Both the position numbers and the translations under genes were made by a program. A model generated the notes under the pieces. It worked only from the letters and a program-made list of their open reading frames with translations. It had not been told where the DNA came from and searched no databases. 64,000 bases of DNA, taken from contig NZ_JAGHZZ010000002.1 of NCBI RefSeq assembly GCF_017745095.1, forward strand, positions 372,001-436,000, read 5' to 3'. The stretch comes from Sporocytophaga sp. (GTDB taxonomy: Bacteria > Bacteroidota > Bacteroidia > Cytophagales > Cytophagaceae). Below, in pieces: positions 34,825 through 37,249 of this stretch; the stretch's first letter is position 1, and each line of letters opens with the position of its first letter.

Positions 34825-36003
34825 CTAAGCCTTTGTCATCACTTTTTCCAGTCTTTCATAAGCTTCTTTCATTTTCTCAGCAGGTACGCAGAGAGATAGC
34901 CTCAGAAAGTTTTTTCCATTGGAACCAAATATTTCACCAGGAGTAAAGAATACATAAGAAGAGTACAGAATCTGATCCACAAAAGCTGCTATATCCGGAA
35001 CAGCTACCGGATCCTTGGGCTTTGCCCAGATAAATAACCCTACCTGATCTTTGCTGTATTCGAAATTAAGTAAATCCAGAATTTTATAAACCCAATCTCT
35101 TCTTTCTCTATAAACGTCATTTCTTTTAGCATGCCAAGCATCATCATTATCCAAAGCTTTTATAGCAGCTTGCTGAATGCCAAGAAACATACCAGAATCA
35201 ATATTGCTCTTAATTGCTAATGCGGCATCAAGATATTCCTTTTTTCCTAACATCATTCCAACTCTCCATCCCGCCATATTATGAGATTTACTGAAGGAAT
35301 TCAACTCTACTGCAACTTCCTTAGCTCCTTCTATCTGCAAAATACTGAATGGTTCTTCTTTATTGAGAACAAGACTATAAGGATTATCATAACAGATGAG
35401 AATCTTTTTCTCTTTTGCAAATTCGATAAGCTTTTTCAGCATATCCTTATTCGCTACTGTCCCAGTTGGCATATGAGGATAGTTCACCCACATTATTTTA
35501 ACTTTGGATAGGTCAGCCTTTTTTAATGTTTCAAAGTCAGGAAACCAGTTATTTTCTTCTTTCAAATCATAATAACGGATTGTACCTCCAGCAAGCATTG
35601 TCAGCGAGGAGTATCCGGGATATCCTGGATTCGGTACCAGTACCTCTTCGCCTGGATTCAAAAAAGCCATTGTAAGATGAAGAATCCCCTCTTTAGAGCC
35701 TAGCAAAGGCAATACTTCATCATTGGGGTTTAGCTCTATCTTATAGGTCTTTTTATACCATTCAGCAATTTTTTGTCTGAATTCTGGAATCCCTCTGTAG
35801 GGCTGGTATCCGTGGGTATTATCTTTTTCAGCAGTAGAAACAATTGCAAGTACAGTTTCTTTGGAAGGCGCTAGATCAGGACTGCCGATTCCAAAGCTGA
35901 TTACATTTTTGCCCTCCTTGTTGAGTTTGGCAATTTCTTCTAATTTTCTTACGAAATAATATTCTTTTACAAGATTAAGCCTGTCTGCTTTTGGTATAAT
36001 CAT
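34825..36003 (-). CDS. Class I/II aminotransferase in the pheA operon (probable aromatic/prephenate-type aminotransferase)
   Basis: This 392-residue PLP enzyme has the lysine motif NSFSKSHNMAGWRVG and the sites GIGSPDLAPS, VPNPGYPGYSS and WVNYPHMPTG. The overall pattern resembles the LL-diaminopimelate aminotransferase-like branch. The start overlaps the pheA stop by 29 nt, so it is the second gene of an operon controlled by the Phe/Tyr attenuator. That context suggests it makes phenylalanine/tyrosine from the keto acids, or aminates prephenate. Family sure; substrate inferred. Confidence 0.9.
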   Translation of the reverse strand: MIIPKADRLNLVKEYYFVRKLEEIAKLNKEGKNVISFGIGSPDLAPSKETVLAIVSTAEKDNTHGYQPYRGIPEFRQKIAEWYKKTYKIELNPNDEVLPLLGSKEGILHLTMAFLNPGEEVLVPNPGYPGYSSLTMLAGGTIRYYDLKEENNWFPDFETLKKADLSKVKIMWVNYPHMPTGTVANKDMLKKLIEFAKEKKILICYDNPYSLVLNKEEPFSILQIEGAKEVAVELNSFSKSHNMAGWRVGMMLGKKEYLDAALAIKSNIDSGMFLGIQQAAIKALDNDDAWHAKRNDVYRERRDWVYKILDLLNFEYSKDQVGLFIWAKPKDPVAVPDIAAFVDQILYSSYVFFTPGEIFGSNGKNFLRLSLCVPAEKMKEAYERLEKVMTKA

Positions 36004-36823
36004 GAATAGTTTCTCCTTTTCTATACTCTCCCAGTATTCTGAGATTTTCTACGATATTTTTTATTTCAATTGACTTTTTGAAATCTTCATAATTGAAAAA
36101 TTCACAGTCTACATAAAATGTGTATTCATTGGGTCTGCCGATAATGGGCAATGACTGAATTTTAGTCAGGTTAATATTATTCTCAACAATAACTCTAAGC
36201 ACATCTGCCAAAGCTCCTACCCTATTCGGAAGATGAAAGCTAATAGTTGCTTTATTTTTATTTTCAGTTTTAAATCTTTTATCTCTGGAAAGAATAAGAA
36301 ATCTTGTATAGTTTTTCTTTTCTGTTTCAATGCTTTCAGCCAGAATATCCAGATTATACAGCTCTGCGGCGTATCTTCCGGCTATAGCAGCAACATTCTT
36401 CTCCCCATTTAATCTGATATCACGAGCACTATCAGCTGTGTCATGGTACTCTTCCAGTTTTATATGAGGGTATTTCTGAAGAAAGTCCTGGCACTGAAGC
36501 AATGCCATATAATGAGATCTCGCCTTTTCAATTTTATCAATGGTAGTCCCAGGCAAGGCCATCAGATTTTGTTCAATCCTTAAATAAATCTCCCCAATTA
36601 TTAAAAAATCAAATTTCTGCAACAGTGCATAGTTGGGCAGAATGCTTCCTGCAATCGAATTTTCAATTGCCATGACAGCATAATCTGCATCTTCGTTTTT
36701 TAAAGTCTCACATAAGATTGGGAAAGAGCCACATTCTATCATCTCCACCTCCTCTTTAAAATAATTTCGAGCCGCTATCTCATGAAATGATGCTCTGCCG
36801 CCTTGTATTGCAACTTTTACCAT
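35975..36823 (-). CDS. pheA: Prephenate dehydratase with ACT domain
   Basis: This 282-residue enzyme converts prephenate to phenylpyruvate in phenylalanine synthesis. The catalytic domain runs from VAIQGGRASFHEIAA (start) through the conserved NYTRFLIL motif (TRF at about 175). The ACT regulatory domain is at about 200-275 (KATISFHLPNRVGALADVL). The ACT phenylalanine-site ESRP motif reads QSLP here, with GRPNEYTFYVD following. There is no chorismate mutase domain. It is preceded by a leader peptide and an intrinsic terminator and followed by an overlapping aminotransferase gene. Confidence 0.95.
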   Translation of the reverse strand: MVKVAIQGGRASFHEIAARNYFKEEVEMIECGSFPILCETLKNEDADYAVMAIENSIAGSILPNYALLQKFDFLIIGEIYLRIEQNLMALPGTTIDKIEKARSHYMALLQCQDFLQKYPHIKLEEYHDTADSARDIRLNGEKNVAAIAGRYAAELYNLDILAESIETEKKNYTRFLILSRDKRFKTENKNKATISFHLPNRVGALADVLRVIVENNINLTKIQSLPIIGRPNEYTFYVDCEFFNYEDFKKSIEIKNIVENLRILGEYRKGETIHDYTKSRQA

Positions 36824-36843: not shown

Positions 36844-36868
36844 AAAAAAAAAGTCCCTAACGGGACCA
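36844..36868 (-). terminator. Attenuator terminator upstream of pheA
   Basis: On the minus strand GTCCC (36866-36862), loop GTTA and GGGAC (36857-36853) are followed by nine T residues (36852-36844), 20 nt before the pheA ATG. The stem is short but GC-rich. Its 3' arm is also complementary to the end of the leader-peptide coding region (36896-36904), which would form an antiterminator. Confidence 0.75.
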
Positions 36869-36896
36869 TCAACAATAGCAATTCTGATCCCTCCGG

Positions 36897-36932
36897 TTAG
36901 GACTGATAGAAATAGTAAAATGCAAATAACAT
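36897..36932 (-). CDS. Phe/Tyr-rich leader peptide of the pheA attenuator (11 aa)
   Basis: A 12-codon frame on the minus strand encodes MLFAFYYFYQS and a TAA stop. Three Phe and three Tyr lie among eleven residues, in a row of control codons. It sits 15-50 nt downstream of a consensus promoter and directly before a pairing region and terminator. This is the standard layout for transcription attenuation by ribosome stalling at low charged tRNA-Phe or tRNA-Tyr. Translation of the peptide is inferred, not shown. Confidence 0.75.
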   Translation of the reverse strand: MLFAFYYFYQS

Positions 36933-36952
36933 TAAACCCCGGACCATACTTT

Positions 36953-36983
36953 CAAATTTAATTTGTTCTTGTAAAGAAACCAA
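36953..36983 (-). promoter_or_regulatory. Consensus promoter (TTG-N20-TAAATTTG) of the pheA operon
   Basis: On the minus strand TTG (36983-36981) and TAAATTTG (36960-36953) are separated by 20 nt. The transcript should begin near 36947, about 15 nt before the leader-peptide ATG, so the whole attenuator lies in the 5' leader. Confidence 0.8.
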
Positions 36984-37005: not shown

Positions 37006-37161
37006 TTATTTTTTTAAAACCTTTGAAATGAAATAGTCGATGAAAACGATTAGAATGAATGTAACCGGAACAAAAATCAACAAAAAAATATAAAATGACG
37101 CATAAGAAAAAAACGAATCTCCGGCAGTTTGAGAGTTTAAGAGGTCTCTTAGAAAGTCCAT
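37006..37161 (-). CDS. Small single-span membrane protein (51 aa)
   Basis: An uninterrupted frame starts at ATG 37161 and encodes 51 residues: a polar N-terminus MDFLRDLLNSQTAGDSFF, one strongly hydrophobic helix (about 22-44, with IFLLIFVPVTFILIVFI), and a basic tail ISKVLKK. The inside-positive tail suggests a C-in orientation. It follows the 180-aa membrane protein gene in the same direction. No homologue is known to me. A long hairpin ends 3 nt before its start codon. Confidence 0.6.
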   Translation of the reverse strand: MDFLRDLLNSQTAGDSFFSYASFYIFLLIFVPVTFILIVFIDYFISKVLKK

Positions 37162-37164
37162 AGA

Positions 37165-37235
37165 TATTGAAGTTTACTTGTTTAAAATTTTATAGGTGTA
37201 AATACATTATCACCTATAAAAAGTAAACTTCAATA
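37165..37235 (-). repeat. Long inverted repeat just upstream of the 51-aa gene
   Basis: Outer arms of 15 nt (37165-37179 and 37221-37235) and inner arms of 11 nt (37188-37198 and 37211-37221) fold into one long hairpin with an 8-nt one-sided bulge and a 12-nt loop. No T-run follows on the minus strand, so it is not a standard terminator. On that strand its 3' arm covers the ribosome-binding region of the 51-aa gene. Confidence 0.7.
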
Positions 37236-37249
37236 CTCCTATTTCTTAT

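Follow-up and report, generated by a model that had tools for sequence, protein, structure and literature searches.

The region upstream of pheA in Sporocytophaga sp. raises the question of whether a short reading frame rich in Phe and Tyr codons, together with the terminator that follows it, forms a transcription attenuator, and how far such a system extends in Bacteroidota. The region lies in the window, which denotes here the whole stretch of 64,000 nucleotides that was analysed.

Organization of the pheA upstream region

An earlier note on this DNA had proposed a promoter, a leader peptide, a terminator and pheA with an overlapping aminotransferase gene, in this order on the minus strand. 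Every coordinate was rechecked and is correct; the features, with the regions of the two alternative folds, are as follows:

36953–36983, minus strand: Bacteroidota-type promoter from sequence reading, with TTG (36983–36981), a spacer of 20 nt and the -7 box TAAATTTG (TAnnTTTG, 36960–36953)
36897–36932, minus strand: leader frame MLFAFYYFYQS*, 11 residues with three Phe and three Tyr, ATG 36932–36930, TAA 36899–36897
36896–36904, minus strand: region 1, AGTCCTAAC, the leader end, which pairs with the terminator loop and 3′ arm and lengthens the antiterminator in MFE folds and in folds with a positioned ribosome
36885–36891, minus strand: region 2, GGGATCA, the 5′ strand of the antiterminator, with seven contiguous pairs to TGGTCCC
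36862–36868, minus strand: region 3, TGGTCCC, in the folds common to the antiterminator (with region 2) and the terminator (with region 4)
36844–36867, minus strand: intrinsic terminator, GTCCC-GTTA-GGGAC (36866–36853) followed by nine T (36852–36844); region 4 is GGGACT
35975–36823, minus strand: pheA, prephenate dehydratase with an ACT domain (Pfam PF00800 and PF01842)
34825–36003, minus strand: class I/II aminotransferase gene (Pfam PF00155, Aminotran_1_2), overlapping pheA by 29 nt

The transcript would start just downstream of the TAAATTTG box. The terminator was placed by a terminator scanner at 36867–36852, and the aminotransferase gene and pheA probably form one operon.

Further upstream, a frame of 51 amino acids (37006–37161, minus strand) encodes a small membrane-like protein, which is found in all four genomes of the genus and shows no Pfam match; similar frames also precede pheA in loci L087–L090. 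An imperfect long hairpin (37150–37245, minus strand; -30 kcal/mol over 96 nt) is located between a DUF7935 gene and this frame.

Chance expectation and conservation in the genus and family

The fold of the region as a whole is of ordinary stability (z = -0.29, with 72 of 200 shuffles folding equally well), so that stability alone is no evidence and the case is built on composition, order and conservation. The helix between regions 2 and 3 taken by itself is likewise within reach of chance, its seven contiguous pairs being attained by 11.5% of shuffles and its energy by 18 of 200. When the 400 nt upstream of the window pheA were dinucleotide-shuffled 5,000 times, an ATG frame with at least six Phe or Tyr codons in eight appeared in 96 shuffles, and such a frame with a terminator within 120 nt in 4.

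The leader and the terminator are retained in all four Sporocytophaga genomes compared, that of the window among them. Across the genus the peptide shows two substitutions, Tyr to Phe and Ser to Pro, and GGGATCA and TGGTCCC are invariant. Outside the genus, 13 of 15 genomes of the family were examined, one of the other two having no pheA match and the other only broken pieces of it, and the leader with its terminator was found only at locus L089 (genome G014). The distribution in the window's own family is patchy.

These observations bear on a simpler explanation, according to which the hairpin constitutively terminates transcription of the genes upstream, the Phe/Tyr frame is due to chance and the promoter of pheA follows the hairpin. 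Genes on the same strand do lie upstream, namely the 51-residue frame and the DUF7935 gene, and Phe and Tyr codons are AT-rich, so that frames of this kind do arise in shuffled sequence at the rate given above. However, the promoter box sits between the 51-residue frame and the leader, merely 20 nt separate the end of the T-run from the pheA ATG (36823), and the leader and terminator are conserved far beyond the gene order of the window, as described below. This explanation is very unlikely.

Distribution in Bacteroidota

Loci of pheA were taken from GTDB contigs (the best 80 of 132) as well as from genome samples of the family, phylum and class, and were picked by likeness to the window pheA, for which reason the tallies given here are no census. 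The removal of 12 loci sharing an 80-mer with another locus, some of them from different genomes, gave a set of 151 non-redundant upstream regions, 94 of which contain a leader with a Phe/Tyr run by rule, 86 with an automatically found terminator; among the best 80 of the 132 contig loci, 52 are positive by rule in this tally. Before near-duplicate removal the leader was present in 97 of 158 loci, 89 of them with a terminator. The set of 158 excludes the fragments L097, L099 and L100 and the duplicates L005, L131, L133, L139 and L140, while L166 was kept despite its partial start. Inspection by eye corrects the rule in both directions: L142 was counted and is false and L153 is doubtful, while the TYFWFYP leaders of L141, L144 and L166 were missed. 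Of the eight loci in the 158-locus set scored as having no terminator, seven show one by eye and L142 does not.

The rule was controlled on 121 loci, where at least six Phe or Tyr codons in eight were found in 66 real sequences, in none of the reverse complements and in 4 of 1,210 shuffles. With the terminator required as well, 62 real loci qualify and none of the 121 reverse complements or 1,210 shuffles. A draw of 198 genomes from the class yielded 53 with a pheA match; 52 were examined and 33 have the leader by rule. By eye, one of these 33 is false and one is doubtful, and three of the remaining 19 loci do carry a leader. Ohtaekwangia, Chryseolinea, Solitalea, Wenyingzhuangia and Ochrovirga are among the carriers. 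Leaders typical of the relatives are MKANNSFFYFYYYFFGPQTGL and MITNRFYFFYFFYQSRMGLERESVC, and at least two Phe and at least two Tyr codons are present in 82 of 86 leaders. Leader-peptide attenuation, a mechanism best known from Proteobacteria, is thus probably common in Bacteroidota.

The set of 86 loci used in the tests described here and below excludes L002–L004 and contains three near-copies (L027, L028 and L031). TAnnTTTG, given in PMC9723704 as the -7 consensus of the Bacteroidota-type promoter, is found in 40 of the 86 no more than 75 nt upstream of the leader start codon, and in 29 of these at 15–21 nt from it. The box occurs in only one of the 86 reverse complements and in none of the 86 stretches taken beyond the terminator, which lie mostly inside pheA.

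The genes downstream of pheA were scanned in four relatives. Three (L025, L057 and L064) include a prephenate dehydrogenase gene (tyrA) after pheA, and in the fourth (L009) pheA is followed by genes for DAHP synthase/chorismate mutase and EPSP synthase. A joint Phe and Tyr signal would fit such combined operons. In the genus of the window tyrA is located elsewhere and not with pheA, and no Phe/Tyr leader precedes tyrA in three genomes of the genus.

Two loci of one genus, L122 (G090) and L155 (G305), show tandem Phe/Tyr leaders at about -320 and -175 nt before pheA, each followed by a terminator-like hairpin found by rule or by eye; these are possibly two attenuators in series. A Phe/Tyr leader and terminator also precede pheA at L105 (G084) and L120 (G032), in genomes outside the class of the window. 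The pheA of L105 is 49% identical to that of the window, and transfer is therefore possible.

Pairing between the leader tail and the terminator

In the relatives, region 2 is the segment right after the Phe/Tyr run, for example CGGGACTT. It is complementary to the 5′ arm of the terminator (region 3) and consequently resembles the 3′ arm, region 4. The pairing was scored in 69 of 80 candidate rows, five copies or doubtful cases and six loci with no usable terminator or tail being left out, and was accepted where the own tail was matched by at most 10 of 200 shuffled tails. By duplex energy, 64 of the 69 loci have a leader tail that pairs with the region 3 of the same locus better than 95% of shuffled tails do, with a median z of -3.2. 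A helix between the tail and region 4 is not general, since it beats shuffles in only 9 of 69 loci (median z of -0.27). Both the leader end with the terminator 3′ arm and GGGATCA with its 5′ side had been named as antiterminator partners; the second pairing is conserved, while the first does not hold as a general one. In Sporocytophaga, the folds show the pairing of regions 1 and 4 stacked on that of regions 2 and 3, strengthening the antiterminator.

The cores of the pairing between regions 2 and 3 vary between genera and families (GGGAC, GAGGC, GAGAC, GGGAT and AGGAT), with partners such as CGAGGCTTT:AAAGCCTCG, TTGAGACTTTGTA:TATAAAGTCTCGA and GTCAGGATTGTG:TACAATCCTGAT, and region 4 changes along with them. 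When partners were swapped between loci, the observed mean was reached in 0 of 10,000 trials with all 86 loci and in 0 of 20,000 with 50 distinct cores. In the latter test the own partner is among the best three of 50 at only 15 of the 50 loci, because many cores are alike. Swapping on this wider set was used since, in an alignment of 35 close sequences (A1), the core is nearly invariant and the helix of regions 2 and 3 accordingly shows no covariation (its score was reached by 62 of 500 shuffles); in the same alignment the terminator stem does covary, with a score that 0 of 500 shuffles attained. The comparison with relatives that the earlier note had called for, in which a conserved leader with compensatory changes in the stems would speak for attenuation, is thus positive with respect to the leader and terminator, the pairing and the partner swaps. 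The mutually exclusive antiterminator and terminator folds proposed there also stand, being supported by the pairing of regions 2 and 3 in the relatives and by the folding model described below.

A covariance model built from the 35 relatives ranks the window element only ninth within the window (E = 0.16), and its best match there shows an ordinary terminator. The model does not single out the element, and its homology to the relatives therefore rests on position and architecture; homology at the RNA level is not proved by the sequence.

The existence of alternative folds at the locus would also be in line with a metabolite-binding or tRNA-binding RNA (a riboswitch or a T-box), or with an RNA-binding protein, that switches the terminator. 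The features which are conserved, though, are the Phe/Tyr codon content and the complementarity of the pairing segments, and these argue against such a switch. At the Rfam gathering score the window has no match except one distant tRNA, the region of the element giving only a chance-level hit, and 12 related loci have no match except one tRNA gene. A switch of this type is even less likely than a constitutive terminator.

In the Cyclobacteriaceae-like loci of the A1 alignment (for example L011, L032 and L035), the first leader codons (AACAACA...) look complementary, as seen by eye, to a conserved segment, GTTTGTTG/TGTGTTGTT, which lies after region 2. These loci may form a further, outer helix that encloses regions 1 and 2.

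Ribosome position and modelled termination

The edge of the ribosome was assumed to lie 12 nt from the first base of the A site. Among the 78 of 86 loci in which at least six contiguous pairs form, the median distance from the last Phe or Tyr codon to region 2 is 10 nt, and region 2 would start about where a ribosome stalled with that codon in its A site ends.

In the window, the modelled probability of the terminator is 0.00–0.27 with the ribosome on any Phe or Tyr codon, 0.78 on Gln and 0.97 on Ser and on the stop codon; shuffling the intervening segment 400 times gave a switch of this size in only three cases. The three sister genomes are modelled like the window except for L002, where the probability is 0.96 and 0.69 on the last two Phe/Tyr codons, i.e. 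the model terminates there. In silico, the placement of the ribosome on the regulatory codons or at the stop thus selects the fold in the window and in the genus, more weakly in L002.

For the 86 loci, the state before region 4 exists was modelled as well. Region 3 is paired upstream with a median probability of 0.70 when the ribosome is in the middle of the run and 0.03 when it is at the stop, with a difference above 0.2 in 86 of 86 loci. To some extent the difference is trivial, since a ribosome on the stop codon masks the partner; with shuffled tails, however, the mid-run probability is only 0.40. At equilibrium, a ribosome-dependent switch above 0.2 is seen in only 16 of 86 loci and the terminator mostly wins even on Phe/Tyr codons, so that switching in most relatives must be kinetic.

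In the textbook attenuators of the trp and phe type, the terminator forms also when the leader is not translated. Sporocytophaga appears to differ in this respect: in the ribosome-free equilibrium model the probability of the terminator is 0.00–0.20 in all four genomes of the genus, as opposed to at least 0.5 in 82 of 86 loci. The window RNA from leader codon 11 onward folds with -17.7 kcal/mol, against -9.5 kcal/mol for the terminator hairpin. With the pairing of regions 1 and 4 stacked on that of regions 2 and 3, read-through is predicted in the genus when the leader is not translated. Formation of the terminator in the untranslated state was not counted here as a requirement for attenuators in general.

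Proposed mechanism

The window element is very probably a classical ribosome-mediated transcription attenuator, which would sense charged tRNA-Phe and tRNA-Tyr together. The anatomy, its conservation, the way in which regions 2 and 3 change together from one genus or family to another and the placement of region 2 at the ribosome edge are apparent from the sequences, and leader translation, the coupling of transcription to translation and the response to starvation would complete the mechanism. RNA polymerase would start just past the promoter box and make the 11-codon leader, which is translated by a trailing ribosome. When Phe- or Tyr-tRNA is scarce, the ribosome would pause on one of the six Phe/Tyr codons and leave region 2 free to pair with region 3, a pairing that would be extended in Sporocytophaga by that of regions 1 and 4. 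The antiterminator so formed would block the terminator, and pheA and the aminotransferase gene would be transcribed. When both tRNAs are plentiful, the ribosome would reach the stop codon and cover regions 1 and 2; the terminator would then form from regions 3 and 4, and transcription would end 20 nt before pheA.

The leader frame might instead act on translation, boosting that of pheA through ribosome reinitiation with no control of termination. Reinitiation by short upstream frames has been proposed in bacteria, with a spacing peak at 11–14 bp in Bacteroidetes, as described in PMC4833913. In the window the leader stop lies 73 nt from the pheA ATG with the terminator in between, which speaks against reinitiation, and neither the Phe/Tyr bias nor the pairing of regions 2 and 3 would be explained by it. 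Of the alternatives to attenuation weighed here, this one is the least likely.

Attenuation by a leader peptide requires a ribosome close behind RNA polymerase, and the wide conservation of the element in a phylum lacking Shine-Dalgarno sequences therefore argues for transcription-translation coupling there. The attenuator would provide a ready in vivo assay for coupling in Bacteroidota, its leader would serve as a codon-based reporter of Phe and Tyr supply, and it would give a regulatory logic for aromatic amino acid genes at loci with no Rfam entry.

Relation to known systems

The leader peptide pheL of E. coli has Phe repeats and no Tyr. The pheL-pheA system is similar to the window element in its short leader of product codons, in the mutually exclusive antiterminator and intrinsic terminator and in the prephenate dehydratase gene downstream, while the window leader mixes Phe with Tyr. 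The use of a single leader with codons for several amino acids of a shared pathway is similar to that in the enterobacterial ilvL and thrL, which differ in the amino acids, the genes and the phylum. Unlike the E. coli system, the window element has no match in Rfam and belongs to a phylum which uses TAnnTTTG promoters and has no Shine-Dalgarno sequences, the latter as described in PMC6847099.

For Flavobacterium psychrophilum, PMC9723704 gives strong clues of leader-peptide attenuation at amino acid operons, and a structured 5′ element of pheA that is conserved in Flavobacteriaceae and has no Rfam hit. The window element is likewise a structured pheA 5′ element of Bacteroidota with no Rfam hit. 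The relevant section of PMC9723704 names no peptide or mechanism for pheA and does not reach beyond Flavobacteriaceae; the overlap with the present finding may be larger than this section shows. The remark in the earlier note that such attenuation has rarely been described for these genes in Bacteroidota is thus fair, but the attenuation clues and the pheA element in that section mean that it is not undescribed.

Leader-like small frames in 5′ UTRs of B. thetaiotaomicron are described in PMC7366714. As of 2010, leader-peptide systems were known only in Proteobacteria and Actinobacteria, to which Firmicutes were then added, according to PMC2965389. A comparative study of the same year by Lopatovskaya et al., cited in PMC4833913, may contain Bacteroidetes cases, while the parts of PMC1262725, PMC2864571 and PMC8305728 that were consulted add no Bacteroidota pheA leader. 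No paper found in the open-licence literature describes the Phe/Tyr leader. The dual Phe/Tyr codon signal and the wide spread of the putative attenuator in Bacteroidota merit a full account; the mechanism itself is classical.

Leaders of other amino acid operons

It seems rather likely, as judged from the sequences, that the class Bacteroidia holds an old and largely uncatalogued group of leader-peptide attenuators that initiate with no Shine-Dalgarno sequence, comprising the Phe/Tyr leader of pheA, a Trp leader of trpE and, probably, a Leu leader of leuA. The pheA leader would be a dual sensor heading joint Phe and Tyr operons, and the Sporocytophaga version would be on by default, with termination brought about only by a ribosome that finishes the leader.

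Other biosynthetic genes were inspected in the genus. No His leader precedes hisG in the four genomes. Frames rich in Leu, Ile and Val lie upstream of ilvD in three genomes, with no terminator; ilvD is apparently internal to an operon in the genus. Upstream of leuA, a leader with LLL(L) and a terminator are present in all three genomes looked at (of the four), which is probably a Leu attenuator; the leader reads MFKSFNILFKTLLLLKVKFSVG* in L176 (G000:C11) and also in L175, and contains LLL in L178.

A leader with WWW and a terminator precede trpE in all three genomes of the genus looked at (of the four). These leaders read MSWWWSIS* in L182 (G000:C11) and L180 and WWWSISRKM* in L183. Across the class, a leader with at least two Trp in five codons was found in 16 of 20 trpE loci, in comparison with 0 of 20 reverse complements; the 20 were retained from 30 loci, two at contig ends and eight weak partial matches being left out. 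The sequence CTGTTCA is found in the terminator of five of these 20 loci.
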